Below are positions 30,072 through 54,607 of a stretch of 64,000 nucleotides of DNA, one piece after another (the stretch's first letter is position 1; each line of letters opens with the position of its first letter). The notes beneath the pieces were generated by a model. The model worked only from the letters and a program-made list of their open reading frames with translations, searched no databases and was not told where the DNA came from. The stretch is taken from positions 3,906,001-3,970,000 of the forward strand of contig NZ_JAPEOK010000001.1 of the NCBI RefSeq assembly GCF_026341515.1, read 5' to 3'. The DNA is from Streptomyces sp. NBC_00878 (GTDB taxonomy: Bacteria; Actinomycetota; Actinomycetes; Streptomycetales; Streptomycetaceae). A program made the position numbers and the translations under genes.

Positions 30072-30108
30072 CTACGCGCGTAGGCCCGGACCGGCTACCC
30101 TCGTGCGC
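30072..30108 (+). promoter_or_regulatory. punA leaderless promoter with CTACGCGCGTAG operator
   Basis: Palindrome CTACGCGCGTAG at 30072-30083, then -10 element TACCCT at 30096-30101, then 7 bases and the GTG start. With transcription starting at the GTG, the palindrome covers -37 to -26, overlapping the -35 region, a repressor-type position. The same palindrome precedes deoC and add. Confidence 0.75.
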
Positions 30109-30933
30109 GTGAACGCATCTCTTCTTCCGGACGACATCCAGGGCGACCCGTACGCCGCCGCCGACGCCGCCGCCGCGCGCGTACGGGAACTGACGGGCGC
30201 CGAGACCCACGACGTCGCCCTCGTGATGGGCTCCGGCTGGGCACCGGCCGCGGACGCCCTCGGCGACCCCGCGGCCGACTTCCAGGTCACCGAGCTGCCC
30301 GGTTTCCCGCCGCCGGCGGTCGAGGGCCACGGCGGCAAGGTCCGCTCGTACCAGATCGGCGACAAGCGCGCGCTCGTGTTCCTGGGCCGCACGCACTTCT
30401 ACGAGGGCCGCGGTGTCGCCGCCGTCGCCCACGGCGTCCGTACGGCCGTGGCCGCCGGCTGCAAGACGATCGTGCTGACCAATGGCTGCGGGGGGCTGCG
30501 CGAAGGCATGCGTCCCGGGCAGCCGGTCCTGATCAGCGACCACATCAACCTGACGGCGGCGTCGCCGATCGTCGGCGCGAACTTCGTCGATCTGACGGAT
30601 CTGTACTCGCCGCGGTTGCGGGCGCTGTGCAAGGAGATCGACGGGACGCTTGAGGAAGGGGTGTACGCGCAGTTCCCCGGGCCGCACTACGAGACGCCTG
30701 CGGAGATTCGGATGGCGCGGGTCATCGGGGCGGATCTGGTGGGAATGTCGACGACGCTCGAGGCGATCGCCGCGCGTGAGGCGGGGGCGGAGGTGCTCGG
30801 TATCTCGCTGGTCACGAATCTCGCCGCGGGGATGACGGGCGAGCCCCTCAACCACGAGGAGGTCCTCCAGGCGGGCCGCGACTCGGCCACGCGGATGGGG
30901 GCGTTGCTGACCCAGGTCCTGGATCGGCTGTAG
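30109..30933 (+). CDS. punA: Purine-nucleoside phosphorylase (trimeric type)
   Basis: Splits purine (deoxy)nucleosides with phosphate into base and (deoxy)ribose 1-phosphate. 274 residues, typical of the trimeric class. Phosphate- and base-site motifs: [59 protein letters not shown] and VTNLAAGM. An Asn in NLAAGM at the base contact indicates 6-oxopurine preference. The GTG start at 30109 is placed by the leaderless promoter (TACCCT, 7 nt). The next gene, 296 bases on and beyond a large repeat, is a mutase that could interconvert the ribose phosphates. Confidence 0.95.
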
Positions 30934-30934
30934 G

Positions 30935-31169
30935 TTTCTCGCCCCCGCCGCCCCTACCCATTCCCGTCACTACTCGGGGGCCAGCCCCCCGAACCCCCCG
31001 CTCCGCAAACGCCGGAGGGGCTGATCTTCAGCCCGTCCGGCGTTTGAGGACGAGGCCGTTCAGGCCGATACGGGGGTCTGGGGGCGGAGCCCCCAGAAAG
31101 GACGGTGGGGGTCCCCCCGCTCGAGCGAAGCCGAGAGTGGGGGAGGGTAGGGGCGGCGGGGGCGAGAAA
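30935..31169. repeat. Composite palindromic element, type B copy 2
   Basis: Outer arms of 24 bases (30935-30958 and 31146-31169, TTTCTCGCCCCCGCCGCCCC onward) are shared with the 14396-14488 palindrome. Inside are AAACGCCGGA-GGGGCTGA-tct-TCAGCCC-g-TCCGGCGTTT, CTGGGGGC-GGA-GCCCCCAG, and at 31105-31144 the module also found reversed at 8374-8412. The whole unit sits between punA and the mutase gene and probably terminates punA. Confidence 0.88.
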
Positions 31170-31229
31170 CCGGGTACACAGGACGCCAGGACTCCAGGAC
31201 ACCAGGACAAAGAGAGAGGTTGACCCGAC

Positions 31230-32870
31230 GTGCAGGACGGACTCATCGCGCGGGCCAAGGCCTGGCTGGCCGAGGACCCCGACGCGGAAACCCGTGAGGA
31301 ACTCGCCAAGCTGATCGACGCCGAGGACACCGCGGAGCTCACCGCACGCTTCAGCGGCACCCTCCAGTTCGGCACAGCGGGCCTGCGCGGCGAACTCGGC
31401 GCGGGCCCGATGCGCATGAACCGCGCGGTCGTCATCCGCGCCGCCGCGGGCCTCGCCGCGTATCTCAAGGCGAAGGGACAGACGGACGGCCTCGTCGTCG
31501 TCGGCTACGACGCCCGCCACAAGTCCGCCGACTTCGCCCGCGACACGGCGGCGGTCATGACCGGCGCCGGCCTGCGCGCGGCCGTACTCCCCCGTCCCCT
31601 CCCCACGCCCGTACTCGCGTACGCCATAAGGCATTTGGGCGCGGTGGCGGGCGTGGAAGTGACGGCCAGCCACAATCCCCCGCGCGACAACGGTTACAAG
31701 GTCTACCTCGGCGACGGCTCCCAGATCGTGCCCCCGGTGGACGCCGAGATCGCCGCGGAGATCGCCGCGATCGCGAGCCTGGCCGACGTCCCCCGTCCGG
31801 ACAGCGGCTGGGAGACCCTCGACGACGGCGTCCTGGACGCCTATCTGGCCCGTACGGACGCGGTTCTGGCCGCCGGCTCCCCGCGTACCGCCCGCACGGT
31901 CTACACGGCCATGCACGGCGTCGGCAAGGAGACGCTCCTCGCGGCCTTCGCCCGTGCCGGTTTCCCGGAACCGGTCCTCGTCGCCGAACAGGCCGAGCCC
32001 GACCCGGACTTCCCCACCGTCGCCTTCCCCAACCCGGAAGAGCCCGGCGCGATGGACCTCGCCTTCGCGAAGGCCCGTGAGACCGACCCCGACCTGATCA
32101 TCGCGAACGACCCGGACGCGGACCGCTGCGCGGCGGCGGTGAAAGACGACCGGGACGGCGGTCACTGGCGCATGCTGCGCGGTGACGAGGTGGGTGCGCT
32201 GCTCGCCGAGCACCTCGTCCGCCGTGGCGCGCGGGGCACGTTCGCGGAGTCGATCGTCTCGTCCTCCCTTCTGGGCCGGATCGCCGGGAAGGCGGGCCTC
32301 GCGTACGAGGAGACGCTGACGGGCTTCAAGTGGATCGCCCGGGTGGAGGGCCTGCGGTACGGCTACGAGGAGGCGCTGGGCTACTGCGTCGACCCCGAGG
32401 GCGTACGGGACAAGGACGGCATCACGGCGGCCCTCCTGATCACGGAACTGGCCTCGGAGCTGAAGTCCGAGGGCCGTACCCTCCTCGATCTCCTCGACGA
32501 CCTCGCGGTCGAGCACGGGCTGCACGCCACGGACCAGCTCTCGGTCCGCGTGGACGATCTGTCCCTCATCTCGGACGCGATGCGCCGGCTGCGCGAGCAA
32601 CCGCCCACGCTGCTCGCGGGCCTGTCCGTCACGAAGGCCGAGGACCTGACGAAGGGCACGGACACGCTCCCGCCCACGGACGGCCTGCGCTACACGCTGG
32701 ACGGCGCCCGCGTCATCGTCCGCCCGAGCGGTACGGAGCCGAAGCTGAAGTGCTACCTGGAGGTCGTGGTCCCGGTGGGCACCCACGCCGGCCTCCCGGC
32801 GGCCCGCGCGAAGGCGACGGAGCTGTTGGCGGCGATCAAGCGGGATCTCGCGGCGGCAGCCGGTATCTGA
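31230..32870 (+). CDS. Phospho-sugar mutase, PGM2/phosphopentomutase-like
   Basis: 546 residues of the alpha-D-phosphohexomutase fold. The phosphoserine loop is TASHNPPRDN, the metal loop NDPDADRC, the sugar loop GYEEALGYCV and the phosphate loop RPSGTEPKLK. The sugar loop resembles the PGM2 group (EEAIGY), whose human member acts mainly as a phosphopentomutase, rather than the GEESGH of glucose enzymes. Placed right after punA, it probably converts (deoxy)ribose 1-phosphate to the 5-phosphate for DeoC, replacing DeoB. It was labelled phosphomannomutase in older annotations. GTG start with GAGAGAGG about 10 nt upstream. Confidence 0.88.
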   Translation: MQDGLIARAKAWLAEDPDAETREELAKLIDAEDTAELTARFSGTLQFGTAGLRGELGAGPMRMNRAVVIRAAAGLAAYLKAKGQTDGLVVVGYDARHKSADFARDTAAVMTGAGLRAAVLPRPLPTPVLAYAIRHLGAVAGVEVTASHNPPRDNGYKVYLGDGSQIVPPVDAEIAAEIAAIASLADVPRPDSGWETLDDGVLDAYLARTDAVLAAGSPRTARTVYTAMHGVGKETLLAAFARAGFPEPVLVAEQAEPDPDFPTVAFPNPEEPGAMDLAFAKARETDPDLIIANDPDADRCAAAVKDDRDGGHWRMLRGDEVGALLAEHLVRRGARGTFAESIVSSSLLGRIAGKAGLAYEETLTGFKWIARVEGLRYGYEEALGYCVDPEGVRDKDGITAALLITELASELKSEGRTLLDLLDDLAVEHGLHATDQLSVRVDDLSLISDAMRRLREQPPTLLAGLSVTKAEDLTKGTDTLPPTDGLRYTLDGARVIVRPSGTEPKLKCYLEVVVPVGTHAGLPAARAKATELLAAIKRDLAAAAGI

Positions 32871-32910
32871 AGACCCGGCGGATGCCCGACGGGGGTCGCA
32901 CCATCACGGC

Positions 32911-32982
32911 CCCCATCGCGGCCTCGATCGCGGTCCCCATCGCGGCCTCGATCGCGGTCCCCATCGCGGCCTCCATCACGGA
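32911..32982. repeat. Three 24-bp tandem repeats
   Basis: CCCCATCGCGGCCTCGATCG units at 32911-32934 and 32935-32958 are identical and a third (32959-32982) has three changes. They lie 40 bases after the mutase stop and contain overlapping ATCGCG/CGCGAT dyads. No gene is supported; the convergent membrane-protein gene ends at 33072. Confidence 0.88.
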
Positions 32983-33071
32983 CCTCTGTCGGACATACCG
33001 GTCAGCGGCGAGGCGTCAGAGGCCGGACCGGCTCTCCACCTCGCGCTCTGGGTCTCGCACTCTCGCTCTCC

Positions 33072-34733
33072 TCAGCCCCACACCACCAGCACCGCCGCCC
33101 ACACCAGCGCCAGCAGCACGGCCAACGGCCAGAGCGGACGGCCGCGTTCGGGTGCGGTGCTCTCGCCGGTGGGCCGCAGCGCGGGGTCCGTACGCATGGC
33201 CGTGAGCTCGGCCGCCAGCGCGTCGTACGGATGGACCAGGCCCTGGCGTCGCTCGAACCACGCCCAGCGCGGCGCCGCGACCGACCAGTCGTCGCCCCGC
33301 CAGCGGAGCTTCAGTTCGAAGGACCGGCGGCGTACGGAGCGAATGTCGTCCCAGGGAACGTGCTGCGGGCCGCGCAGCCCGGTGACCCACAGACCCGAGC
33401 GGTCGGCGGTGATGCGCCAGGCGAGTTTCACGGGGACGCGGGCGGCACCGTAGAGACCGAGGGCCAGGACGGCGGCCAGCTCCCAGATCGGCCGGCCGGA
33501 GTCCGTGAACCAGACCCAGCACATCCAGACACCCCACTGCACGAGCAGCGCGGCCGCCAGCCAGTCCAGCCAGCCCGCACGCCACCGGCGTACCGGGACG
33601 GGCGGCCGGTCCACGACCAACTCCCGTGCCTGCTCCTCCAGTTGACGACTCTGCGCCGCCCGGGCCTGCTCCTTGGCGACCCGCCTCATGCCCGCGCTCG
33701 CCGACAGCGGCCGGACCGGCCCCGCCGACCACTCCGTCAGCGGCGGCTGGTCCGGGTCCTCGTCGGCGCTGACGATCACGAGCTCGGCGCCGTCGAAGGG
33801 AGCGCCGTAGAGGACGGCCTCGCGGACGGGCCCGGGGGTGTCGTCGTTCACGGCGTCGAGAAGCCGCTCCAGCTCCTCGTGATCCGCTGCGGCGTCTTCG
33901 TCGTCCTCGTCGTCCTCGTCGTCGTCCGGCTCCTCACCGTCGTGCGACGTCAGGTCCACCGTGAAGAGGGGGCGCACCGCGGCGAGGTCGTCGGCCGCGT
34001 ACACCTCCGTGGTGCCCTGGGCGTCGTCGCGTACGAGGACGCGCAGGACGGGCGCGGGGGTCCGGCGCAGGGCGAGGGCCCGGTGCCGGCCCAGCCACGC
34101 CGAGACGAGGGCGGTCAGGGCGAGCCCGGCGAGGTAGAAGGCCATGACCCAGGAACCGCGTTCGTCGTCGACCGTGCCCCACAGGCCCGCGGTGGCGCCG
34201 GTGAGCACGCCGAGCCCGAGCACCACGAGACCGAGCGGAAGCAGGAACCGGCCGCGCCGCACCACGGCGTCCGCGCCCGGGATCCGTGCCGTACCGTCCC
34301 CGGCGGCCTCCAGCGCCTGTTCGAGCTGACCGCCGCGAGCCCGCAGGCGTACGGCGACGGCGGCCCAGGTGACCACCACGACGAACGCCACGACACCGGT
34401 CACGACCCACGGCAGCGACCGCGCCTCCAGCGCGAGCGCCAGCAGCAGGACGGGCGCCCCGGCCCAGACCAGCTCGGGCCGTGCGAGCACCCACAGGACG
34501 TACACCGCGAACGCCGCCGCGACGAACGGCCACAGCCCGCCGAGCATCGCGGCCCAGGCGCCCACGCACAGCGCGAACGTGGTCACGGCTCCCGCGATCG
34601 ACCTGCGCACCCGCAGGAACGTCCAGCGCGGCGGCAACGCGGCCGACCAGCCCGCCGCCCGCCCGGCCGACCAGTCCCGGCAGCCGTCGGGTATCGCGGC
34701 CACGGGCAGTCGCAGCGGCTCGTCGTACGACAC
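33072..34733 (-). CDS. Large multi-pass membrane protein, function unknown
   Basis: 553 residues. N-terminal pairs of membrane helices (about 45-90, 95-130), another set near 165-215, an acidic cytoplasmic stretch (EEPDDDEDDEDDEDAAAD, about 265-285), then a helical linker, two more helices (about 385-430), a PH-like segment (WRITADRSGLWVTGLRGPQ) and a final C-terminal anchor (LWPLAVLLALVWAAVLVVW). No catalytic motifs are recognised. GTG 34733 is selected because AGGAG lies 5 nt upstream. The next gene upstream on the same strand also encodes a PH-domain membrane protein, so they may act together at the membrane. Confidence 0.85.
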   Translation of the reverse strand: MSYDEPLRLPVAAIPDGCRDWSAGRAAGWSAALPPRWTFLRVRRSIAGAVTTFALCVGAWAAMLGGLWPFVAAAFAVYVLWVLARPELVWAGAPVLLLALALEARSLPWVVTGVVAFVVVVTWAAVAVRLRARGGQLEQALEAAGDGTARIPGADAVVRRGRFLLPLGLVVLGLGVLTGATAGLWGTVDDERGSWVMAFYLAGLALTALVSAWLGRHRALALRRTPAPVLRVLVRDDAQGTTEVYAADDLAAVRPLFTVDLTSHDGEEPDDDEDDEDDEDAAADHEELERLLDAVNDDTPGPVREAVLYGAPFDGAELVIVSADEDPDQPPLTEWSAGPVRPLSASAGMRRVAKEQARAAQSRQLEEQARELVVDRPPVPVRRWRAGWLDWLAAALLVQWGVWMCWVWFTDSGRPIWELAAVLALGLYGAARVPVKLAWRITADRSGLWVTGLRGPQHVPWDDIRSVRRRSFELKLRWRGDDWSVAAPRWAWFERRQGLVHPYDALAAELTAMRTDPALRPTGESTAPERGRPLWPLAVLLALVWAAVLVVWG

Positions 34734-35096
34734 ATGCACTCCTGGATCACGTGGGATGGCCGGTGGTGACACCGGCGCAGGCACAGGTGGTGACAGTAGC
34801 GACCGAGCGCCCCTGCGCGGACCGCCCGGCCACCTTCGCCACCACCGAGGTACCGCCCTCTCGTACGGCCGGACGCGCCCATCGCCTCAAACGGGCGGGG
34901 ACGTCGAGCCACGAAATGCCATACGAAGCCTCACCAATTCACGAGAACCGAGCACGCGCCCCGGGCGCCCCCGCCCCAGCCGACGTCGACGACCTCAGCG
35001 GGCCCCGCCCCTCCCCCGGCGCTCTCAGCCCATCCGGTCTCACCGACCTCGCCGGTGACACCGACCTCGCTGGTGGCGCAGGTGGCGCAGGTGGAG
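34734..35096. other. 363-bp intergenic region, no gene seen
   Basis: Contains upstream sequence of the large membrane-protein gene and the 3' flank of the PH-domain gene. Near 35045-35096 there are short imperfect repeats (GACCTCGCCGGTGACACC, GGTGGCGCA twice). I see no convincing ORF, hairpin or RNA. Confidence 0.5.
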
Positions 35097-35771
35097 TCAG
35101 CCCACCGCGAGCAGAATCGCCAGCAGCACGGCACCGGCCACCGCCGGCGCCACGATCTCGTACGCCCACCGCACCGACACGTCGCCCTGTGCCCTCGGGT
35201 CCTTGCCCCGGGCCTCCAGCAGCTCGCGCAGCTCGTGCATGGTCTGGTCGGCCTGGGCGCGTACGGGTCCGGCGGGTCCGGTGGTCACCGCCGCGGGATG
35301 GCGCTGCTGACCGCCGCGGGCGGCGTCCGCGGCCCCGCGGCTCTCCCCACGCGCCTCCCGCCGGGCGGCCCTCTTGCGGGCCCGCAGCGAGACGGGCACG
35401 GCCCACACCTGGTACTTGGTGCCGGAGGTGTCGAGCACCTCGTTGGAATAGCCCGACTTGAACGTCTCCACCGTCCCCCAGGGCAGCACGATCACCCGGA
35501 AGGGGTTACGGATACGCAGCCGCTGCTCGTTGGCGTAGACGGCGGGACGCAGGGTGAACGCGGCGACCAGCGGGACCAGGAAGATCAGCGAGGCCAGCGC
35601 CACCCACGGCGTACGTCCCTCACCGGTGACCAGGGCGTCGATTCCGAGCCAGCCCACGATCGCGAGCAGCAGCACACCGCCCGCGATACCGGAGGGCGAC
35701 CGGTAGACCCGGTCCTTGAACTGGGGATCCGGTGCGTCCGGTGCGGATGGCTGATGGTCCGGGGTCGTCAT
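35097..35771 (-). CDS. PH-domain membrane protein
   Basis: 224 residues. Two N-terminal membrane helices (about 26-45 and 52-75), a bacterial PH domain of the PF10756 type (LRPAVYANEQRLRIRNPFRVIVLPWGTVE, split around residue 80-105), a basic Ala/Arg-rich helix (RARKRAARREARGESRG) and one C-terminal membrane segment (APAVAGAVLLAILLAVG). Function unknown; such proteins are widespread in actinobacteria beside other membrane genes. ATG at 35771 (MTTPDHQPS). It marks the last core-type gene before the accessory region at 36 kb. Confidence 0.87.
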   Translation of the reverse strand: MTTPDHQPSAPDAPDPQFKDRVYRSPSGIAGGVLLLAIVGWLGIDALVTGEGRTPWVALASLIFLVPLVAAFTLRPAVYANEQRLRIRNPFRVIVLPWGTVETFKSGYSNEVLDTSGTKYQVWAVPVSLRARKRAARREARGESRGAADAARGGQQRHPAAVTTGPAGPVRAQADQTMHELRELLEARGKDPRAQGDVSVRWAYEIVAPAVAGAVLLAILLAVG

Positions 35772-36008
35772 GGCCCCGATTCTGCCCGACGCGCTCCGGG
35801 GCCGATTTCCAGCACCCGCACGTGGCCTTTGCCAATCGGCTGGGCGATGGGCCCCCGCCTGCCCCGAACCGCACTTGATCGGCCGCGGCACCTCGCCAAG
35901 ACCGCGGACTGCCTCAGCCTGGCGGATGCCGGCGAGACCGCCGGACGAGAGCTCGATACGGCCACCCGCGGCCGGCGGGAGGCTGCGACAGGGTGAGGGA
36001 TCCGGCGC

Positions 36009-36578
36009 TCAGTACAGCCAGCGTCGCAGAACCCGCGTCACGGTCGGCATGACCAGGTAGGTCATCAACCCTCCTATCAGCACGTTGGTAATGACGTTGG
36101 TCAAGTAGAACGACCAGGATCGCGGCACCCATGCCATCTCGAGCGGGATGATGACCGCCGTCAGCCCGTAGACAGCACCGATGGTCACCAGTGCCATCTT
36201 CCACTTCTTCGGTGGCGGTAACGCGGGAGCTTCACTGATGGAGAACCACGTTTCCATCCCGGTCGCAGCCTGGCGCTGCGAGGTCGAGAACGCGTCTGCC
36301 TCGGCTGAGAGTGCATGGCGAATATCGGAGTCCTCCCACGCCCGGAGAGATTCCTGGTCGGTAAAGCGGTGAACGAGCCGGAAGACGTTCGACTTACCGG
36401 GCGTCGGGGCGAGCACTGCCGTCCCAAGGTTGTTGGGGAACTTCTCGGCAGCGTTGATCAGCCGCACCAGCCAGTGCTTGTAGTCGTCCTCGCGCCCGGG
36501 ATGGACGGTGCGGGTAATCATCACGGAAGCCGGATCGGACTGCACGGCTTCGACCGATTGGCCTGTTTCGATCGGCAT
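36009..36578 (-). CDS. Antibiotic-biosynthesis-monooxygenase-fold protein with two membrane helices
   Basis: 189 residues. The first about 110 form an ABM/dimeric alpha-beta barrel domain (VMITRTVHPGREDDYKHWLV, NVFRLVHRFTDQESLRAWEDS), the fold of small cofactor-free monooxygenases and heme-degrading proteins. The last 65 residues contain two membrane helices (ALVTIGAVYGLTAVIIPL and FYLTNVITNVLIGGLMTYLV). The same fusion is found in a group of membrane proteins of unknown role. ATG with GGAG 8 nt upstream. Fewer Gly/Ala codons and more Asn/Lys/Ile than neighbours suggest transfer. First gene of the putative aromatic-metabolism island. Confidence 0.85.
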   Translation of the reverse strand: MPIETGQSVEAVQSDPASVMITRTVHPGREDDYKHWLVRLINAAEKFPNNLGTAVLAPTPGKSNVFRLVHRFTDQESLRAWEDSDIRHALSAEADAFSTSQRQAATGMETWFSISEAPALPPPKKWKMALVTIGAVYGLTAVIIPLEMAWVPRSWSFYLTNVITNVLIGGLMTYLVMPTVTRVLRRWLY

Positions 36579-36927
36579 CTCACCTGCTCCTGTTCTCCAA
36601 CGGGTAACTGCTGCGGCACGTGCAAGGCGCGCCGGGCCGTTGTTGGGCCGCGCCGCGCTCCACCGTGCTTGGCCGGTCGGCCGGCGATCTGGGCCCTGGT
36701 ATCGGATGTGGTCGGACTACGGAGCCTTCAATTTCGTCTCACCGGTGGGGATCCGGCTCAGGGAAGACCGGTCGGCGCGGTTGCGGGACCGGCGAAGGCC
36801 GGGGTCGAGGCGACATGCTCGGGGCGGACGACCCGCAGACTGCCGTCGGCGTGGTCGGAGGCACTCCTTGGCGCGAGGACGGCCGGACGCCTTCGGGCTC
36901 GCTCGGGTCACGCCGCGCCTGTGGCGA
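36579..36927. other. 349-bp intergenic region, no gene seen
   Basis: Between the ABM protein gene and the aldehyde dehydrogenase stop. Several short frames are open but lack start signals and family resemblance. I see no strong hairpin. It may be residue of a decayed gene. Confidence 0.4.
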
Positions 36928-38433: not shown

Positions 38434-38457
38434 GATGTCGCCTTCCCGGGTGGTCAA

Positions 38458-38485: not shown

Positions 38486-38539
38486 AGGATACTGCTTGTG
38501 CCGCCGTTTTTCCCAGACTTGACGGCTAGGCTCGGGCCC

Positions 38540-42474: not shown

Positions 42475-42614
42475 CGCCCGGCCGAACCGTTCCGTCGCTT
42501 CACGCCACCGCCGGCAGGTGCGGCGGGGGCGAAACCCGCATCCACCTGCGCACCCACACATCCAGACCCGCCCCCGAACGCAGACCTACACCCACCCCCA
42601 GGGCTGTACAGCCG

Positions 42615-42639
42615 CTACGCGCGTAGATATGCTCGTCTA
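42615..42639 (+). promoter_or_regulatory. deoC leaderless promoter with CTACGCGCGTAG operator
   Basis: Palindrome at 42615-42626, -10 element TATGCT at 42628-42633, six bases, then GTG 42640. With initiation at the GTG the palindrome covers -25 to -14, inside the promoter spacer. Confidence 0.78.
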
Positions 42640-43602
42640 GTGACCATGTCCACCACCGCATCCGCCGCACCCGCATTCACGGACGTGACCGCGTCCAACA
42701 GCACGCTGCGCCGCTTCCTCCACGGGCTGCCCGGCGTCGACACGGTCGGGCTGGAGGCGCGTGCCGCCTCGCTCGGCACGCGTTCCATCAAGACGACCGC
42801 GAAGGCGTACGCCATCGACCTCGCCATCTCGATGGTCGACCTGACGACGCTCGAAGGCGCGGACACCCCGGGCAAGGTCCGGGCGCTCGGCGCCAAGGCC
42901 GTCCGCCCCGACCCCACGGACCGTACGACCCCGACGACGGCCGCCGTCTGCGTCTACCCCGACATGGTGGCCACCGCCAAGGAGGCCGTCGCCGGCTCCG
43001 GCGTGAAGGTCGCCTCCGTCGCGACCGCCTTCCCGGCCGGCCGCACCGCGCTCGACGTGAAGCTGGCCGACGTGCGGGACGCCGTCGCCGCGGGCGCCGA
43101 CGAGATCGACATGGTCATCGACCGCGGGGCGTTCCTCGCGGGCAACTACCTGAAGGTGTACGACGAGATCGTCGCCGTGAAGGAGACCTCGGGCGCCGCC
43201 CGCCTGAAGGTCATCTTCGAGACCGGCGAGCTGTCGACGTACGACAACATCCGGCGCGCGAGCTGGCTCGGCATGCTGGCGGGCGCGGACTTCATCAAGA
43301 CCTCGACGGGCAAGGTCGCCGTCAACGCGACGCCCCCGAACACCCTCCTCATGCTGGAGGCCGTCCGTGACTTCCGCGCGCAGACCGGGGTACAGGTCGG
43401 CGTGAAGCCCGCCGGCGGCATCCGCACCTCCAAGGACGCCATCAAGTTCCTGGTCCTGGTCAACGAGACCGCGGGCGAGGACTGGCTGGACAACCACTGG
43501 TTCCGCTTCGGCGCGTCCTCACTTCTGAACGACCTGCTGATGCAGCGTCAGAAGCTGGCCACCGGCCGCTACTCCGGCCCCGACTACGTGACGGTGGACT
43601 GA
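42640..43602 (+). CDS. deoC: Deoxyribose-phosphate aldolase
   Basis: Cleaves 2-deoxyribose 5-phosphate to acetaldehyde and glyceraldehyde 3-phosphate. 320 residues, class I aldolase TIM barrel. The Schiff-base Lys is in GADFIKTSTGKVAVNAT, the second Lys and phosphate loop in GVKPAGGIRTSKDAI, and the acid Asp in ADEIDMVIDRGAF. An N-terminal Ser/Thr/Ala leader of about 20 residues precedes the fold. The GTG start is set by TATGCT 6 nt upstream (ATG 42646 is the other option). Two aldehyde-dehydrogenase genes follow, six bases and then an 8-base overlap away, so one operon can oxidise the acetaldehyde made here. Confidence 0.96.
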   Translation: MTMSTTASAAPAFTDVTASNSTLRRFLHGLPGVDTVGLEARAASLGTRSIKTTAKAYAIDLAISMVDLTTLEGADTPGKVRALGAKAVRPDPTDRTTPTTAAVCVYPDMVATAKEAVAGSGVKVASVATAFPAGRTALDVKLADVRDAVAAGADEIDMVIDRGAFLAGNYLKVYDEIVAVKETSGAARLKVIFETGELSTYDNIRRASWLGMLAGADFIKTSTGKVAVNATPPNTLLMLEAVRDFRAQTGVQVGVKPAGGIRTSKDAIKFLVLVNETAGEDWLDNHWFRFGASSLLNDLLMQRQKLATGRYSGPDYVTVD

Positions 43603-46015: not shown

Positions 46016-46129
46016 GGGGCCACCGCGCTCGTCGTACTGGCAGCCACCGTGCCCGTCGCGTACCGACGTCCGCCGCGCCCGTCGTACTGACGGGCCACCG
46101 TCCGTCGTGCCGACGGCCGCCGAAGACGG

Positions 46130-46172: not shown

Positions 46173-46235
46173 CTTCGGCCTTCGCACGGATCGCCGCCGC
46201 ACAACGGGACGCCGTACTACGGGCTGTCGCACGGC

Positions 46236-46637: not shown

Positions 46638-46764
46638 GGCTGCTGCCGCCTTCTGCCGCGCAAAGTAATCAGGTTGACACTAAGGGTAGTTGAGGTGTGA
46701 TGCCCACTCCAAAAGCGACCCGCGGGGTCGGCCGGGGACGCGCGATACGTCAGACTGGTGACTC

Positions 46765-47412
46765 GTGAGTTCCCATCTCCCGAATTCCGCGACAACCGCC
46801 CGCGTCGTGCTGCTGTGCGGCCCCTCCGGCTCCGGCAAGTCCCTGGTCGCGGCCCGCTCCGGCCTTCCGGTGCTGCGGCTCGACGACTTCTACAAAGAGG
46901 GCGACGACCCGACGCTGCCGCAGGTGGCGGGGAGTTCGGACATCGACTGGGACCACCCGCTGTCCTGGGACGCGGACGCCGCCGTCGCGGCGATATCGGA
47001 GCTGTGCCGGACGGGGCGTACGAGCGTTCCGATGTACGACATCGCCCTGAGCGCGCGCAGCGGTGAGGAGACCGTCGCCATCGAGGGAGCGTCGGCCTTC
47101 ATCGCGGAGGGCATCTTCGCCGCGGAGATCGTGGCGCGGTGCCGCGAGGCCGGAGTGCTCGCCGACGCGCTGTGTCTCAACCGCGGGGCGGTGGCCACGT
47201 TCCGGCGGCGGTTCCTGCGGGATCTGCGGGAGGGGCGCAAGTCCGTGCCGTTCCTGCTGCGTCGCGGCTGGCGGCTGATGCGGGCCGAGCGGTCGATCGT
47301 GGCCCGGCAGACCGCGCTCGGCGCGTACCCCTGCGACAAGGCCGAGGCCCTGGACCGGCTGGCCGCGGCGGCAGCCGGGCACCACGCGGCACCACGCCCG
47401 ACAACGGCGTAG
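46765..47412 (+). CDS. Uridine-kinase-like P-loop kinase
   Basis: 215 residues. P-loop CGPSGSGKSLVAARSG, then LRLDDFYKEGDDPTLP (DDFY is the uridine kinase motif), DWDHPLSWD (substrate loop) and YDIALSARSG. The lid region (RRRFLRDLREGRKS) is Arg-rich. It probably phosphorylates uridine/cytidine or a related nucleoside, in keeping with the nucleoside genes around it, but the family also includes non-nucleoside kinases. GTG start without a clear ribosome site; CAGACT at 8 nt suggests a short or missing leader. Confidence 0.87.
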   Translation: MSSHLPNSATTARVVLLCGPSGSGKSLVAARSGLPVLRLDDFYKEGDDPTLPQVAGSSDIDWDHPLSWDADAAVAAISELCRTGRTSVPMYDIALSARSGEETVAIEGASAFIAEGIFAAEIVARCREAGVLADALCLNRGAVATFRRRFLRDLREGRKSVPFLLRRGWRLMRAERSIVARQTALGAYPCDKAEALDRLAAAAAGHHAAPRPTTA

Positions 47413-47842
47413 CGACGACGGCGTGGGGACGACGGCGTGGCGACGACATCACCGGCGGCGCGGAAGCAAGTGCCGTAACCAGCGCGCACACGATGCGCAC
47501 GGGACGGCGCACCCGACGGCACACGCGAAACGACGGCACACACGAAAGAAGGTCCAAACAGACCCCCCGGTCTGTCTGGACCCGCTCTCGTTTCCCCGTG
47601 ATCCCCCGCGGTCCCCCGTGACCCCGTTGGTTCCCCCCGGTAGTGCTCCCCCGTGCTGTCCGCCGCCTCCCCCCGGAGTGGCGAACATTCTCCGTCCGTC
47701 GCCTCCCCCGAAGTGACGGACACCCTTTGCCCGCCGGCTCCCCCCGGAGCGGCGAACGCCTTGCTTGCCCGCCGCCTCCCCCGAAGCGACGAACATCCTG
47801 CCCGCCGCCTCCCCCCGGAGTGGCGGACATCCCCCGCAGCCT
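47413..47842. repeat. 430-bp non-coding region with five 33-37-bp repeats
   Basis: A hairpin GTCCA-AACAGACC-CCCC-GGTCTGT-CTGGAC (47551-47580) follows the kinase gene and looks like its terminator. From about 47660 to 47833 five degenerate units CCGCCGCCTCCCCCCGGAGT-GGCGAACAT follow in tandem, each able to form a small stem. No gene is supported. Confidence 0.75.
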
Positions 47843-48604
47843 TCAGGCGACAAGCTCCCCGAAGGACTCCTCCTCGTCACGGCCGAAGCTGAGGACCTGG
47901 TCCTCGCGCATCCGGCGGAGCGACCGCCAGATGCTGGACTTCACCGTGCCGACACTGATGTCGAGGATCTCAGCGATCTCCGGGTCCGTGCGGCCCTCGT
48001 AGTAGCGGAGGACCAGCATGGTGCGCTGGAGTTCGGGCAGCCGGGCGAGCGCCTGCCACAGAACGGCGCGCAGCTCGGTGCCGCGCATCGCGTCCGTGTC
48101 GCCGGCCGTCTCCGGCAGCTCCTCGGTCGGGTACTCGTTCAGCTTGCGGCGGCGCCACGCGCTGATGTGCAGATTGGTCATCGTGCGGCGGAGGTAGCCC
48201 CCGACCGCGGCCTTGTCGCTGATCCGGTCCCAGGCTCGGTAGGTCGAGAACAGTGCGCTCTGCAGCAGGTCCTCGGCCTCGAAGCGGTCACCGGTCAGGT
48301 GGTAGGCGGTTGCGTACAGGGAGGCGCGGCGCTCCTGGACGTAGGCGGTGAACTCCGCCTCCGACGCCGAACGACGCTCCCCCGAGCCCTCCCCGTACGC
48401 TGCCCCCGTTCCCCCGTGGGCAACCCCCGTGTTGCTTCCCCCCACCTGCGCGTCAACCACCGTCATGTACGACCCGGTGTGCTGACGCCCGGTGCCGCGA
48501 GCGCACCCCCGCCCGCTCACGGCACCGGACTTCTCCGTGCTCCTCGTGACGTCGTGGAGACGCGTGACAACTGCGCCAGTGTTGGTGCTGTGCAGCGTGT
48601 TCAT
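47843..48604 (-). CDS. sigQ: ECF sigma factor SigQ
   Basis: 253 residues. Sigma region 2 (AYHLTGDRFEAEDLLQSALF, then YRAWDRISD) and region 4 (LPELQRTMLVLRYYEGRTDP, GISVGTVKSSIWRSL-type helix as DISVGTVKSSI) are intact; there is no SnoaL domain. It is of the SigE-type ECF group. About 70-90 N-terminal residues precede region 2 and are low in structure. ATG 48604 is used since GGGGGG lies upstream; ATG 48466 (MTVVDAQVGG) would give a shorter protein. SigQ is divergent from afsQ1/afsQ2 and in S. coelicolor is activated by AfsQ1 and opposes its output; the shared promoter carries an AfsQ1 box. Confidence 0.93.
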   Translation of the reverse strand: MNTLHSTNTGAVVTRLHDVTRSTEKSGAVSGRGCARGTGRQHTGSYMTVVDAQVGGSNTGVAHGGTGAAYGEGSGERRSASEAEFTAYVQERRASLYATAYHLTGDRFEAEDLLQSALFSTYRAWDRISDKAAVGGYLRRTMTNLHISAWRRRKLNEYPTEELPETAGDTDAMRGTELRAVLWQALARLPELQRTMLVLRYYEGRTDPEIAEILDISVGTVKSSIWRSLRRMREDQVLSFGRDEEESFGELVA

Positions 48605-48699
48605 CTCGCGCCCCCCGTCGTGGAGTTCCGGTTCTGCGGTGCTTCCTTGCCTGTGACGAAAAGCTTGCCGGGGCCACTTCATGACGGTGTCCCCCGACT

Positions 48700-48715
48700 G
48701 TCACAGACCTGTCAC
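48700..48715. promoter_or_regulatory. AfsQ1 binding site (GTnAC-n6-GTnAC)
   Basis: GTCAC-AGACCT-GTCAC matches the published AfsQ1 consensus exactly; another GTCAC follows near 48730. It is located in the sigQ-afsQ1 intergenic region, 96 bases before the assigned sigQ start. Confidence 0.8.
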
Positions 48716-48867
48716 AGGGGTTCAGCCCAGTCACCTCACAGACCGATCACAGAGAAGCGTCGTACGGCTACTCATCCGGCACCTGTTCCCCCTACTCGTA
48801 CGCGGGACATGTGTGGGAGCGCTCCAACAGTCGATACACCGCCACGTCATGGGACAGAATGACGTCC

Positions 48868-49545
48868 GTGCCTTCCCTGTTGCTGATCGAGGACGACGAC
48901 GCCATCCGGACGGCCCTGGAGCTCTCTCTGACGCGCCAGGGACACCGGGTGGCCACCGCTGCCACCGGCGAGGACGGTCTGAAGCTGTTGCGTGAGCAGC
49001 GGCCGGATCTGATCGTCCTCGACGTGATGCTGCCCGGCATCGACGGCTTCGAGGTGTGCCGACGCATTCGGCGCACCGACCAGCTGCCGATCATCCTGCT
49101 GACCGCACGCAGTGACGACATCGACGTCGTCGTCGGACTGGAGTCCGGCGCCGACGACTATGTCGTGAAACCCGTGCAGGGGCGGGTGCTCGACGCCCGG
49201 ATCCGGGCCGTGCTGCGCCGCGGCGAGCGCGAGGCGAACGACGCGGCGACGTTCGGTTCGCTGGTCATCGACCGCGCGGCGATGACCGTGACGAAGAACG
49301 GCGAGGATCTCCAACTGACGCCCACCGAGCTGCGGCTGCTCCTGGAACTGAGCCGGCGGCCCGGACAGGCGCTGTCCCGCCAGCAGTTGCTGCGGCTGGT
49401 GTGGGAGCACGACTACCTCGGCGACTCGCGGCTCGTCGACGCGTGTGTGCAGCGGCTGCGCGCGAAGGTGGAGGACGTGCCGTCGTCCCCCACCTTGATC
49501 CGTACCGTCCGGGGTGTCGGCTACCGGCTGGACAATCCTCAGTGA
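48868..49545 (+). CDS. afsQ1: Response regulator AfsQ1
   Basis: 225 residues, as in S. coelicolor. OmpR-type: receiver (PSLLLIEDDDAIRTALELSL) with phosphoacceptor Asp52 in LIVLDVMLPG, LLTAR and VVKPVQ; then winged helix (LTPTELRLLLELSRRPGQAL, DYLGDSRLVDACVQRLRAKV). It activates antibiotic clusters and sigQ and represses nitrogen assimilation under glutamate-rich conditions. GTG 48868 gives the known length; CAGAAT 7 nt upstream suggests a leaderless start. The stop overlaps the afsQ2 start by four bases. Confidence 0.96.
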   Translation: MPSLLLIEDDDAIRTALELSLTRQGHRVATAATGEDGLKLLREQRPDLIVLDVMLPGIDGFEVCRRIRRTDQLPIILLTARSDDIDVVVGLESGADDYVVKPVQGRVLDARIRAVLRRGEREANDAATFGSLVIDRAAMTVTKNGEDLQLTPTELRLLLELSRRPGQALSRQQLLRLVWEHDYLGDSRLVDACVQRLRAKVEDVPSSPTLIRTVRGVGYRLDNPQ

Positions 49546-51143
49546 CCAAACCGCAGGACAAGCTCCGCGGCTGGGCCGCGGCGCGCAAGAGGATACTGGC
49601 GGGTCTGCGCTTCACCAGCCTGCGGCTGCGCCTGGTCGTGGTGTTCGGGCTGGTCGCGCTCACCGCCGCCGTGTCGGCGTCCGGGATCGCGTACTGGCTC
49701 AACCGCGAGGCCGTGCTCACCCGTACGCAGGACGCGGTGCTCGGCGACTTCGAGCAGGCGATGCAGACCCGCGCCAGCACGCTGAGGCCGCATCCCACGC
49801 GGGGGGAACTGCAGCGCGCCGCCGGGCAGATGGCGAACAGCAGCCAGCGCTTCAGCGTGCTGCTGCTCGCTGAGGACGAGAACGGCAAGACCGTGCGCGG
49901 GAACTCCGACCTGGACACCTTCACGCTGGAGGACGTACCGAAGTCCCTCCAGAAGGCGGTGAACAAGGAGCAGGAGATCTCCTCGAACAACAAGTACACC
50001 TACCACCTGTACTGGCAGCGGATAGTCCAGGGCGACAAGCCGTATCTCGTGGGCGGCGCGAAGGTGATCGGCGGCGGGCCGACCGGCTACATGCTCAAGT
50101 CGCTGGAGCCGGAGGCGAAGGACCTCAACTCCCTGGCCTGGTCGCTGGGGATCGCGACCGGGCTCGCGCTGATCGGCTCGGCGCTGCTCGCGCAGGCCGC
50201 CGCGACGACCGTACTGAAGCCGGTGCACCGGCTGGGCACCGCGGCCCGGCGGCTCGGCGAGGGCAAGCTGGACACCCGGCTGCGGGTGTCGGGCACGGAC
50301 GAACTCGCCGATCTGTCACGGACGTTCAACCGCACCGCGGAGTCGCTGGAGAAACGGGTCGAGGACATGAGCGCCCGCGAGCAGGCTTCCCGGCGGTTCG
50401 TGGCGGACATGTCGCACGAGCTGCGGACGCCGCTGACCGCGATCACGGCCGTGACCGAGGTGCTGGAGGAGGAGCTCGACGCGGAGACCGGCAGCGTCGA
50501 CCCGATGATCGAGCCCGCGGTCCGGCTCGTCGTCAGCGAGACCCGGCGGCTGAACAACCTCGTGGAGAACCTCATGGAGGTCACCCGCTTCGACGCGGGC
50601 ACGGCCCGGCTCGTCCTCGACAACGTCGACATCGTCGACCAGATCACCGCGTGCATCGACGCGCGGGCCTGGCTGGACGCGGTGGACCTGGACGCCGAGC
50701 GCGGCCTCATGGCGCTCGTCGACCCGCGCCGCCTGGACGTGATCATGGCGAACCTGATCGGCAACGCCCTCAAGCACGGCGGCTCCCCGGTGCGCGTGTG
50801 CGTGCGCGACGAGGGCAATGACCTGGTCATCGAGGTCCAGGACCACGGTCCCGGCATCCCGGAGGACGTCCTGCCGCACGTCTTCGACCGCTTCTACAAG
50901 GCGAGCGCCTCCCGGCCGCGTTCCGAGGGCAGCGGCCTCGGCCTGTCCATCGCCCTGGAGAACGCCCATATCCACGGCGGTGAGATCACCGCCACGAACT
51001 CGCCCAAGGGCGGCGCCGTCTTCACCCTGCGGCTGCCGCGCGACGCCTCGGAGCTCCGGGACCCCGACAGCCCTGACAGCCCCGAGAACGCCGTGCACGC
51101 GGACCCGGCCGACGTCGGCGACCGCACCGAGGGGGGCGCGTGA
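49542..51143 (+). CDS. afsQ2: Sensor histidine kinase AfsQ2
   Basis: 533 residues. Two membrane helices (about 28-48 and 198-218) enclose a sensor domain of about 145 residues outside the membrane; then HAMP (TVLKPVHRLGTAARRLGEG), DHp with ADMSHELRTPLTAI (phosphorylated His) and ATPase domain with NLIGNALKHG, DHGPGI and GSGLGLSI. It phosphorylates AfsQ1. GTG 49542 overlaps the afsQ1 stop (GTGA), so translation is coupled. The 30-residue tail (SDSPENAVHADPADVG type) is disordered. Confidence 0.96.
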   Translation: MTKPQDKLRGWAAARKRILAGLRFTSLRLRLVVVFGLVALTAAVSASGIAYWLNREAVLTRTQDAVLGDFEQAMQTRASTLRPHPTRGELQRAAGQMANSSQRFSVLLLAEDENGKTVRGNSDLDTFTLEDVPKSLQKAVNKEQEISSNNKYTYHLYWQRIVQGDKPYLVGGAKVIGGGPTGYMLKSLEPEAKDLNSLAWSLGIATGLALIGSALLAQAAATTVLKPVHRLGTAARRLGEGKLDTRLRVSGTDELADLSRTFNRTAESLEKRVEDMSAREQASRRFVADMSHELRTPLTAITAVTEVLEEELDAETGSVDPMIEPAVRLVVSETRRLNNLVENLMEVTRFDAGTARLVLDNVDIVDQITACIDARAWLDAVDLDAERGLMALVDPRRLDVIMANLIGNALKHGGSPVRVCVRDEGNDLVIEVQDHGPGIPEDVLPHVFDRFYKASASRPRSEGSGLGLSIALENAHIHGGEITATNSPKGGAVFTLRLPRDASELRDPDSPDSPENAVHADPADVGDRTEGGA

Positions 51144-51808
51144 TGTTCGGACGACATGCATGGGGCGTACGCCGGACGCGTGCGGCCTCCGCACGGGGCC
51201 GCCGGACGCGTGCGGCTCGTCTCGTGCTCGCCGTGCCGTTGCTGGCCGTGGCCCTCGCCGGGTGCGGGATCCGGGCGACGGAGGTGCCGACCGACTTCGG
51301 TCCCGCGCCCTCCCGGGTGCCGTGCACGCTGACCGCCCCCGACATCGGTACGCAGTCCTCGCGCGGGATCCTCGTCCAGGTCTTCCTGCTCTGCTCCTCG
51401 CAGCTGGCGCCGGTGGACCGGACCGTGCGCATCGGGGCCGGACCGGCGGACACGGACCGCGTACGGGGCGCGCAGGCGCTCCTCGACGAGCTCTCCGAGC
51501 CGCCGTCGGACGCCGAGCAGCAGGCGAACTACACGACGAGCGTGCCGGACGGCCTGACGGTGAACGGCCCGAACCGCGGCGACCCGGACGACACCCTGCG
51601 TCTGAGCACCCGGCCCACGGACCTGTCGTCGTACGCGCTCGCCCAGATCATCTGCACGTTCAGCGACTCGGCGGCCGCCGCCGACGGCGCCATGGTCACA
51701 CTCGGCGGGCCCGGTACGGACACCCCGCGCCGCTACGAGTGCACGGAGGCGGTGCGCTCCCGCCCGGGCACGGAGACCCCGCCGCAGACGGAGACCGAGG
51801 GGACCTGA
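51140..51808 (+). CDS. Lipoprotein of the afsQ operon
   Basis: 222 residues. Arg-rich start, signal peptide ending in lipobox LAGC (near residue 42), then a domain with SRVPCTLTAPDIGTQSSRGI, QVFLLCSSQLAPVDRT and LAQIICTFSDSAAAADG; the design and position recall GerMN-like lipoproteins encoded beside sensor kinases. Three Cys in the mature part (besides the lipid-bearing Cys) may form disulfides. The GTG at 51140 overlaps the afsQ2 stop, so the gene is the third member of the operon. It probably aids or modulates sensing by AfsQ2 at the outer membrane face; this role is inferred from context only. Confidence 0.87.
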   Translation: MMFGRHAWGVRRTRAASARGRRTRAARLVLAVPLLAVALAGCGIRATEVPTDFGPAPSRVPCTLTAPDIGTQSSRGILVQVFLLCSSQLAPVDRTVRIGAGPADTDRVRGAQALLDELSEPPSDAEQQANYTTSVPDGLTVNGPNRGDPDDTLRLSTRPTDLSSYALAQIICTFSDSAAAADGAMVTLGGPGTDTPRRYECTEAVRSRPGTETPPQTETEGT

Positions 51809-51976
51809 GCTTCCCGGCCAAGCCCCCGCCAGGCCTCCGTCAAGCCCCCGCCAGACCCCTGTCAGGTCCCCGCCAGGCCTCCACCGGGCCCCCTCTGTGG
51901 CGCACGCCTCACCCGTGCAGGCCAAGCGCCGCCGTCACACGGAACCGATCCTGCCGGTGGCAGCGTCTTGGGTGGC

Positions 51977-52543
51977 GTGCAGCGTCAAGGCTCGGACGGC
52001 AGCAGCGCCGTGATCCGCTTCCGTGCGACGGGGAGTGTCCTCCTCGTCGCACATCTCGCGCTCGTTGCCTGGTGCACGCTGCGGCCCCTGGACGTGCCCT
52101 GGGTGAGCGCCGCGAACCTGCGTCCGTTCGCGAGTATCCGGGCCGATCTGGCGCTGGGCCCCGAGGCCGCCGCCCGCGCCATCGGCAAGGGCCTGCTGCT
52201 GCTCGCCCCGCTGGGTGTCCTGCTGCCCCTGGCGGGCGGCAGACTCGCCGTCTCCCCGCTGCTGTCCCTGCTGCGTACGGTCGCCGCCGGCGCCCTGCTC
52301 TCGCTGGGCATCGAGCTCCTGCAGACCGGGGTGCCCGGGCAGGTCGTGGATGTCGACTCGCTGCTGCTGAACACCGTGGGCGTGGCACTGGCCCACGTCG
52401 CCGTGGTGCCCGCCGCCCGGGCCGTACTGCGCCACCGGGCCGAGATGCTGCGCCGGGCCGCCGCCCTCCGCCGGAAGGAAGCGTCCGAGGAGACGACTCA
52501 GGGTCGGACCCCGACGATTCCCAGGGTCGGGATCGCCCCGTAG
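51977..52543 (+). CDS. VanZ-like family membrane protein
   Basis: 188 residues with four membrane segments and the VanZ features TLRPLDVPWVSAANLRPFAS, SLGIELLQTGVPGQVVDVD and LLNTVGVALAH. The conserved E-LLQ and DVDSLLLNT motifs are in place. VanZ confers low teicoplanin resistance in enterococci; most relatives have unknown roles in envelope biology. A charged C-terminal tail (RHRAEMLRRAAALRRKEAS) faces the cytoplasm. GTG 51977 with GGGTGGC close upstream is preferred to the TTG at 51968. Confidence 0.88.
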   Translation: MQRQGSDGSSAVIRFRATGSVLLVAHLALVAWCTLRPLDVPWVSAANLRPFASIRADLALGPEAAARAIGKGLLLLAPLGVLLPLAGGRLAVSPLLSLLRTVAAGALLSLGIELLQTGVPGQVVDVDSLLLNTVGVALAHVAVVPAARAVLRHRAEMLRRAAALRRKEASEETTQGRTPTIPRVGIAP

Positions 52544-52637
52544 AGCGACGCTTTGCCCCCTTCGGATCCGTAGCGTTGACGACAGATGAGGCAGCCACAG
52601 GGGAAGCCTCGGACCGACGCTCACGAAGGAGCCGTTC

Positions 52638-52844
52638 ATGAACCGCCTTGCCCGCCCCACCGACGGCCGGATGATCGGCGGAGTGTGCGCCGCGCTGGCT
52701 CGGCGCTTCGGCACCTCCGCGACCACGATGCGGGTGATCTTCCTGGTGTCCTGCCTGCTGCCTGGCCCGCAGTTCCTGCTCTACATAGCGCTGTGGATCC
52801 TGTTCCCCTCCGAGGACAAGGCCACCACCCGTACCGCTTGGTGA
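52638..52844 (+). CDS. PspC-domain small membrane protein
   Basis: 68 residues. PspC domain: LARPTDGRMIGGVCAALARR followed by FGTSATTMRVIFLVS and a hydrophobic helix ending in LYIALWILFPSED, all typical. PspC proteins sense envelope stress or toxin-like membrane disturbance; a lone 68-residue form is common in Streptomyces. AAGGAG lies 7 nt before the ATG. A perfect terminator (52864-52904) follows 20 bases after the stop. Confidence 0.93.
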   Translation: MNRLARPTDGRMIGGVCAALARRFGTSATTMRVIFLVSCLLPGPQFLLYIALWILFPSEDKATTRTAW

Positions 52845-52863
52845 CGCGCTCCGCACGCACAGA

Positions 52864-52904
52864 CGCCGATGGGGCGCACCCGAGCGGGGTGCGCCCCATC
52901 GGCG
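52864..52904 (+). terminator. Terminator after the PspC gene
   Basis: Perfect 18-bp stem CGCCGATGGGGCGCACCC / GGGTGCGCCCCATCGGCG with a GAGCG loop, between convergent genes; it may serve both. Confidence 0.9.
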
Positions 52905-52933
52905 CGTACGAGGGTGGCGCCCAGGTGCCGGAC

Positions 52934-53287
52934 TCAGCCCAGCGGAATCCCGTTCACCGGCTGGCCGTGCGTGGGCAGGCCCTGGGGCGGCAGGCCCCCG
53001 AGCAGACCGGCGGCCGGCGCGGCCGGACCCTCGGCGAGGGGATTCGCGACGGCCGGCTGGGCGGCGGCGAGGCCGCTGCCGAGCGCGTTCTCACCCTGGG
53101 CGACCGACTCACCGGCGCCGGGCAGGGTCTTGGTGACCCCGTCCACCGGCAGCGTGCTGGTGGCGGTGGAGAGCACCGAGGTGGCGTCCGGAACCGCCGG
53201 GGCCGCGTTGGCGGCACCCGCGCCCGCGGCGGCGAAGGCGGCACCGAGAGCGGCGACACCGAGGGTCTTGGCAGCAGACTGCTTCAT
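52934..53287 (-). CDS. Small secreted protein, function unknown (2)
   Basis: 117 residues. Signal peptide (MKQSAAKTLGVAALGAAFAA, cleavage near ANAAPA), then a mature part rich in Ala, Pro, Gly and Val with blocks STLPVDGVTKTLPGAGESV and PLAEGPAAPAAGLLGGLPP. No Cys, no domain known. ATG 53287 with AAGGA upstream. It resembles the secreted protein at 46236-46637. Abundant small exported proteins of this type are found in Streptomyces culture fluids and cell walls, but I know no function. Confidence 0.82.
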   Translation of the reverse strand: MKQSAAKTLGVAALGAAFAAAGAGAANAAPAVPDATSVLSTATSTLPVDGVTKTLPGAGESVAQGENALGSGLAAAQPAVANPLAEGPAAPAAGLLGGLPPQGLPTHGQPVNGIPLG

Positions 53288-53412
53288 CTTCGTCCTTGCA
53301 TGCTGTGACGGGGATTGGAGCGGTCCGAAACGGTAATCACGTGCGAGCTCGCGCCGCAAACATCGAAAAACGGCCGAGTCGTCATCACCCGGCCGCTTCC
53401 CGTACCTCTTCT

Positions 53413-54579
53413 TCAGCCCTCTTCGCTCACAGAACCGCTGGTGGAAGCGGTTTGCTGGAACAGCCATTCGGACTTCAGCTCGGCATAACCGGGCTTGATG
53501 ACGTCATTGATCATGGCCAGTCGTTCATCGAAAGGAATGAATGCTGATTTCATCGCATTGACTGTGAACCACTGCATGTCGTCGAGCGAATAACCGAAAG
53601 CGTCGACAAGGTGCTCGAATTCCCGGGTCATGCTGGTGCCGGACATCAGACGGTTGTCGGTGTTCACGGTCGCCCGGAAGTGCAGCCGCCGCAGCAGCCC
53701 GATGGGGTGCTCGGCGTACGAGTCGGCGGCGCCCGTCTGGAGGTTGGAACTGGGGCACAGCTCCAGCGGGATCCGCTTGTCGCGCACGTACGAGGCGAGG
53801 CGGCCGAGCTTCACGGAGCCGTCCTCGTGGACCTGGATGTCGTCGATGATGCGCACGCCGTGGCCGAGCCGGTCGGCGCCGCACCACTGGAGCGCCTGCC
53901 AGATGGAGGGGAGTCCGAAGGCCTCGCCCGCGTGGATCGTGAAGTGGTTGTTCTCCCGCTTCAGATACTCGAAGGCGTCGAGGTGACGGGTGGGCGGGAA
54001 GCCGGCCTCGGCGCCCGCGATGTCGAAGCCGACCACTCCGCTATTGGGGCCGGGGCCGCGGTAGCGGTTGGCGAGTTCGGCGATCTCCAGGGAGCGGGCC
54101 GCGTGCCGCATGGCGGTCAGCAGGGCGCCGACCCGGATCCGGTGACCGTCCTCGCGGGCCCGCCGCTCACCTTCCCGGAAGCCCTCGTTGACGGCCTCGA
54201 CGACCTCTTCGAGGGTGAGCCCGGCGTCGAGGTGCTGCTCGGGCGCGTACCGCACCTCGGCGTAGACGACGCCGTCCTGGGCGAGGTCCTCGGCGCACTC
54301 GGCGGCGACACGGACGAGCGCCTCGCGGGTCTGCATGACGGCACAGGTGTGCGCGAAGGTCTCCAAGTACCGCTCCAGTGACCCGGAGTCGGCGGCCTCC
54401 CGGAACCAGATGCCGAGCTTGCCGGGGTCGGTCTCGGGGAGATTGGCATAGCCCGTGTCGCGGGCCAGGTCGACGATCGTCCCGGGGCGCAGGCCCCCGT
54501 CGAGGTGATCGTGCAGAAGGACCTTCGGCGCCTGGCGGATCTGCTCCGAACTCGGAGTGTTCTTGGTCTGGCTCGTCAT
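53413..54579 (-). CDS. add: Adenosine deaminase
   Basis: Deaminates (deoxy)adenosine to (deoxy)inosine for PunA. 388 residues, TIM-barrel amidohydrolase. Zinc and catalytic motifs: [12 protein letters not shown] (His-x-His), [10 protein letters not shown] (His, Glu), [10 protein letters not shown] (His) and [15 protein letters not shown] (Asp; the usual DDP is DNR here). Start ATG 54579 has TAGGGT at 6 nt and is probably leaderless, with the CTACGCGCGTAG palindrome just beyond. The last about 25 residues ([19 protein letters not shown]) are Ser-rich. Confidence 0.94.
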
Positions 54580-54607
54580 CTCCGCACCCTAACGCCTACG
54601 CGCGTAG
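54580..54607 (-). promoter_or_regulatory. add leaderless promoter with CTACGCGCGTAG operator
   Basis: Reading the minus strand: palindrome (54607-54596), 4 bases, -10 element TAGGGT (54591-54586), 6 bases, ATG. With initiation at the ATG, the palindrome covers -28 to -17. This is the third occurrence in the window in the same context. Confidence 0.78.

Follow-up and report, generated by a model that had tools for sequence, protein, structure and literature searches.

Are the genes for nucleoside breakdown in Streptomyces sp. NBC_00878 held together by a short palindrome that serves as a common operator? The question is raised by a locus in which, according to an initial annotation, one identical 12-bp palindrome, CTACGCGCGTAG, stands ahead of punA, deoC and add. 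The window, that is, the whole stretch analysed here, comprises 64,000 nt (GCF_026341515.1, contig NZ_JAPEOK010000001.1, positions 3,906,001 to 3,970,000 of the forward strand). A search of the entire window returned exact copies at 30072-30083, 42615-42626 and 54596-54607, confirming all three positions. The word marks a real, family-wide nucleoside regulon, which is ordinary in kind and unusually clean. We consider it a candidate operator, quite probably that of a single repressor dedicated to taking up and breaking down nucleosides and used across the Streptomycetaceae. For nucleoside recycling in this antibiotic-rich family, neither an operator nor a regulator was described in the literature searched; a near-invariant 12-bp word is a ready bait for finding its reader and gives a clean target list.

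Position of the palindrome in the window and the genome

The three copies differ in their placement relative to the promoter elements. At punA (30109-30933, plus strand; purine-nucleoside phosphorylase, TIGR01698, 341.9 bits versus a cut-off of 302.6), the word spans positions -37 to -26 from the GTG start codon (30109; start codon as +1). It covers the -35 position and lies 12 nt before the -10-like box TACCCT (30096-30101, plus strand), which is followed after 7 nt by the GTG; this layout is kept in the punA rows of relatives. At deoC (42640-43602, plus strand; deoxyribose-phosphate aldolase, TIGR00126, 176.9 bits versus a cut-off of 117.3), the word (-25 to -14 from the GTG at 42640) is contained in the 17-bp spacer between the -35-like box TGTACA (42605-42610, plus strand) and the -10-like box TATGCT (42628-42633, plus strand). 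The latter box, 6 nt before the GTG and 1 nt after the word, is kept in the deoC rows of relatives. The add gene (53413-54579, minus strand; adenosine deaminase, NF006847, 640 bits versus a cut-off of 412) starts with the ATG at 54579 and has the word at -28 to -17, 4 nt before the -10-like box TAGGGT (54586-54591, minus strand), which lies 6 nt before the ATG. Both the TAnnnT boxes 6 to 7 nt before the starts and the location of the palindrome between -37 and -14 had been described correctly in the initial annotation. Since the -10 boxes end so close to the start codons, the punA, deoC and add transcripts are likely leaderless, judging from sequence.

The claim that the window holds no other copy is valid for the exact word. 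When up to two mismatches were allowed, a single additional match appeared at 49456, within response-regulator/kinase genes. The resulting count of four is at chance level (mean of shuffled sequences, 4.52), and thus only exact copies are informative. In the 11.12-Mb genome, CTACGCGCGTAG occurs five times exactly and the reversed control word once, with 1.26 exact copies of CTACGCGCGTAG expected from base composition. Random scatter across the genome, which would speak against a regulon, was not seen: four of the five exact copies fall inside 36,091 bases. The fourth of them, at C1:3972152 (window coordinate 66152, 2.2 kb past the right edge), precedes the predicted start of a nucleoside ABC-transporter ATPase gene by approximately 76 nt, as anticipated for the permease operon beyond the edge. 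The permease genes adjoin at the right end of the window, where a permease of a nucleoside-type ABC transporter (PF02653) is encoded at 62058-63428 on the minus strand. The fifth copy, at 4.62 Mb, is intragenic in a LacI-type ORF and is probably there by chance.

Two bmp genes, neighbours just past the window (window coordinates 67612 and 68939; L016:4113 and L016:5440), carry the variant CTACGCGCGTTA. In each case, the second half of the word merges with a TAATCT-like -10 box, which would explain why this half is asymmetric. The thymidine phosphorylase gene deoA (60279-61571, minus strand; NF004490) has no CTACGCGCGTAG in its 129 upstream bases, the best match there having four mismatches.

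At one mismatch, there was no genome-wide excess of CTACGCGCGTAG (27 sites, including the 5 exact ones, versus 39 for the control). Gene models, made with a purpose-written script rather than a standard gene finder, were used to inspect nine of the 22 one-mismatch sites. One site, ATACGCGCGTAG (L023:9097), lies approximately 48 nt upstream of a gene resembling 2',3'-cyclic-nucleotidase/5'-nucleotidase. Another, CTACGCGGGTAG (L026:9338), precedes an apparent cluster that we take, from its sequence, to be purS-purQ-purL, and it is followed by a further CTACGTG half-site. In genome G227, the exact word (L167:9923), also followed by a CTACGTG half-site, stands upstream of an apparent cluster to which we assign the same names on the same assumption.

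Conservation and regulon membership in relatives

All 101 sampled genomes of the genus contain CTACGCGCGTAG, with 385 copies in total (2 to 6 per genome) versus 57 copies of the control word. Within the family, the word was found in 149 of 150 genomes and in 16 of 17 genera; the sole exception, genome G398, has a one-mismatch word in the deoC region. The family was taken as Streptomycetaceae from its named relatives, which are mostly Streptomyces and also Kitasatospora, Yinghuangia, Actinacidiphila, Wenjunlia and Streptantibioticus. In two other family genera, CTACGCGCATAG precedes punA (4/4 loci). In a sample of the class, all 28 members of the genus had the word, and at least one copy was present in 10 of 268 other genomes. 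A hidden regulon outside the family was considered and rejected: in genome G184, the sole non-family genome of this sample with three copies, none lies directly upstream of a nucleoside salvage gene recognised with crude gene models.

Two sister families possess punA/deoC-type clusters of similar gene order, and in the eight loci analysed (L258-L265) these clusters contain neither the DeoR-type gene found at 26508 in the window nor CTACGCGCGTAG within one mismatch. In six of the eight, accA2- and Lpd-type genes were seen without this gene between them. Single exact copies occur in 3 of 15 sister-family genomes, two of them inside an ORF that is presumably IMP-dehydrogenase-like, judging from its sequence, and one at no recognised gene.

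To assign targets, sequences adjoining 66 exact copies from 17 of the 28 genus genomes in the class sample were used in tblastn. Of these copies, 17 belong to deoC, 17 to punA, 16 to add and 11 to the transporter ATPase; altogether, 61 of 66 are at one of these four targets. This is the enrichment before nucleoside genes predicted in the initial annotation. The remaining copies were found at a second adenosine deaminase gene (two), a HAD-type hydrolase gene (one) and a purQ-type cluster (one), or had no assignment (one). The predicted conservation before orthologues was likewise borne out, with the word before punA and before deoC in 17/17 genomes each and an exact copy in 57 of the 58 named loci in which the add upstream region is present; the alternative outcome, absence in front of these orthologues, did not occur.

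A set of 80 named loci around deoA contained 105 exact copies of CTACGCGCGTAG and no copy of the control word. The upstream region of the transporter is present in 76 named loci, of which 47 have the exact word, 21 have the one-mismatch word CTACGCGTGTAG and 8 have no site within two mismatches. The bmp region is present in 74, and in all 74 CTACGCGCGTTA precedes bmp and merges with a -10-like box. At deoA, 27 of the 80 loci have CTATGCGCGTAG, one has a different one-mismatch word, three have a word with two mismatches, and 49 have no site within two mismatches. A shared-operator regulon is recognised by one site before functionally linked units, and here this site precedes punA, deoC, add and the ATPase gene as the exact word and the bmp genes as a variant; it is also kept at orthologous promoters of other species.

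The second adenosine deaminase gene harbors CTACGCGCGTAG within its own codons 3 to 6. This placement pattern matches in 22 of 199 genus genomes, all 22 in that gene, the number referring to word-bearing copies (L345-L366; also L165, L166, L168 and L169). The codons imposed by the word are rare in the rest of these genes (GCT, 13 of 1080 Ala codons; GTA, 5 of 717 Val codons).

Two individual copies were noted for their layout. In genome G095 (L164:9171), an exact copy before a HAD-type hydrolase gene is arranged as at add, with the word, 4 nt, TACCCT, 6 nt and ATG. In genome G328 (L144:1501), an exact copy fills the 17-bp spacer between CTGACA and TAGGCT, and no target was recognised.

Mode of action

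Placement within the spacer, over the -35 position, at the -10 box and in the early coding region suits a repressor better than an activator, suggesting that the site serves repression. When nucleosides are absent, RNA polymerase would be blocked by a dimer occupying the word, which lies in the spacer or overlaps the -35/-10 region at punA, deoC and add, at the bmp genes for binding proteins and at the ABC-transporter operon. Incoming nucleosides would give rise to a metabolite that releases the dimer, a phosphorylated pentose being the natural guess. The repressor-operator reading is supported by the conservation in 101/101 genus and 149/150 family genomes, by the 385 copies versus 57 of the control, by the target counts in the 17 genomes and in the named loci, and by the word in codons 3 to 6 of the second adenosine deaminase gene, where it uses codons rare in these genes. 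It is weakened by the intragenic copy in an unrelated gene of NBC_00878 (one of five), the lack of a genome-wide one-mismatch excess, the one copy of 66 without an assigned gene, and the transporter (8/76) and deoA (49/80) loci without a site.

An activator site is improbable. The punA copy is located where some activators bind (-37 to -26), but what speaks against activation is the location of the word at deoC, add, bmp and the second adenosine deaminase gene, namely in the spacer, overlapping the -10 box or early in the coding sequence. That the word arose by chance, or is a fixed promoter element to which no dedicated regulator belongs, is barely conceivable. In DNA of this composition, GC-rich palindromes form readily, and the window count at two mismatches is what chance gives; however, chance was rejected on the basis of the genome count, the near-complete conservation in genus and family and the 61 of 66 copies at nucleoside targets, and the word is rare outside the family. 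A fixed promoter element was rejected because the distance between the word and the -10 box differs between genes (1, 4 and 12 nt in deoC, add and punA). The BldD box is the odd-length motif TNACNC(A/T)GNGTNA; it was dismissed by inspection, the word being even-symmetric and without a central A/T.

Candidate readers and fine structure of the word

Which protein reads the putative repressor site? The best single candidate, suggested in the initial annotation and still a tentative one, is the DeoR-type regulator encoded at 26508-27476 on the minus strand, which combines a DeoR-type helix-turn-helix (PF08220) with a DeoRC sensor domain (PF00455). In this reading, which falls somewhat short of an even chance, the gene joined the pun/deo cluster when the family arose, and its product senses a pentose phosphate. 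One orthologue is present in each of 61 family genomes (61/61). The nearest exact CTACGCGCGTAG is 2.1 to 3.3 kb away in the 16 genomes with both coordinates on one contig; in genome G434, orthologue and exact copy are on different contigs. The window also has a TetR-type gene next to 26508; five loci from three other genera of the family do not contain it. Gene and word are both missing from the eight sister-family clusters, and in 14 sister-family genomes no homologue exceeds 45% identity. Among solved structures, the only sequence match was 7L6L, a deoxyribose operon repressor.

Several observations count against this candidate. Orthologues exist in 12 of 137 non-family genomes of the class, and in nine of nine examined the recognition helix SEVTVRRD is the same; the nine loci analysed have other neighbours and no CTACGCGCGTAG within one mismatch. 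As a separate lead, a search near outgroup DeoR-type loci for a palindrome resembling CTACGCGCGTAG led nowhere. The score with the NCBIfam DeoR model (73.6 bits versus a cut-off of 244) places the protein outside the E. coli DeoR subfamily. Its own promoter lacks the word, unlike the promoters of some DeoR members, which carry the same operator as their targets. Instead, it has a different conserved block of approximately 70 nt (window 27477-27550, minus strand), with 81% mean identity versus 51% further upstream in 30 family genomes (L171-L201). The block contains two AACTnCTG words, AACTTCTGTTA and AACTGCTGAAA, which are 20 bp apart and do not resemble the operator; apparently, the block is the control region of the DeoR-type gene itself. 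SCO4920 is presumably the counterpart of the gene at 26508. In the excerpt of PMC3224704, SCO4920 is the centre of a co-expression module with bldN, and its expression follows that of bldN rather than that of nucleoside genes, which also speaks against the candidate. SCO4920 is listed among regulators in the excerpt of a glucose-repression study (PMC4848846).

The chance that the word is read by another regulator from elsewhere in the genome, such as one of the LacI type, is slightly below even. The flanks extend CTACGCGCGTAG towards a 14-bp ideal, TCTACGCGCGTAGA, with GCGC at its centre, and LacI-type sites are often palindromes of approximately 14 bp centred on CG, as is the word with its flanks. 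The points against the DeoR-type protein also favour such a regulator, but no LacI-type gene was found in the regulon or tied to the word.

The set resembles the DeoR regulon of E. coli, which comprises deoCABD and nupG, in that one palindromic site serves deoxyribose-phosphate aldolase, nucleoside phosphorylases and nucleoside uptake, and in that a DeoR-type gene lies within the cluster. It differs in its unrelated operator (CTACGCGCGTAG versus TGTTAGAATTCTAACA), in also including adenosine deaminase and, together with its bmp genes, an ABC importer, in the distribution of the genes over several promoters rather than in one operon, and in that the reader here is a candidate. The LacI-type regulator CebR binds the operator TGGGAGCGCTCCCA, which shares the 14-bp symmetry centred on GCGC; the half-site is different, and no LacI-type gene was tied to our word. 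According to the excerpt of PMC9430930, NupR of Bacillus thuringiensis belongs to the GntR/HutC family and regulates nucleoside permease genes; regulation mainly of nucleoside transport is common to both systems, while organism and regulator family differ.

The initial annotation knew of no description of this operator, and we found none in the literature searched, which covered main texts and few subscription journals, so that absence from print is unproven. CTACGCGCGTAG together with Streptomyces gave no match. The bare string matched only DNA crystal structures and Caulobacter GapR work, and the 10-base core with Streptomyces only phage TelN work, in the excerpts returned. No Streptomyces nucleoside regulator was described in the searched texts, including the excerpt of PMC6627660.

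The outer bases of the 14-bp ideal are distributed unevenly. The named loci contain 105 exact copies, with T..G flanks in 58, G..A in 32 and G..C in 10; T..A flanks occur in none. Both outer bases (T..A) are present in 27 of 27 CTATGCGCGTAG copies versus 0 of 21 CTACGCGTGTAG copies. By these counts, operators are typically one or two steps away from TCTACGCGCGTAGA; affinity tuning is one reading of this distance, and shared ancestry of each promoter is another. In a broader scenario, which we regard as unlikely in its entirety, operator and reader arose together at the family origin, with the arrival of the DeoR-type gene in the pun/deo cluster, and the word has been nearly invariant since. 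Copies would stay approximately one base short of TCTACGCGCGTAGA, keeping the whole set inducible, and the accessory adenosine deaminase gene would have its operator at the beginning of its own coding sequence. The exact and CTATGCGCGTAG copies fit this scenario, but the CTACGCGTGTAG copies do not, and copies at one promoter share ancestry. Since the gene cluster is present in the sister families and the word is not, the word offers a way to date the birth of the regulon.
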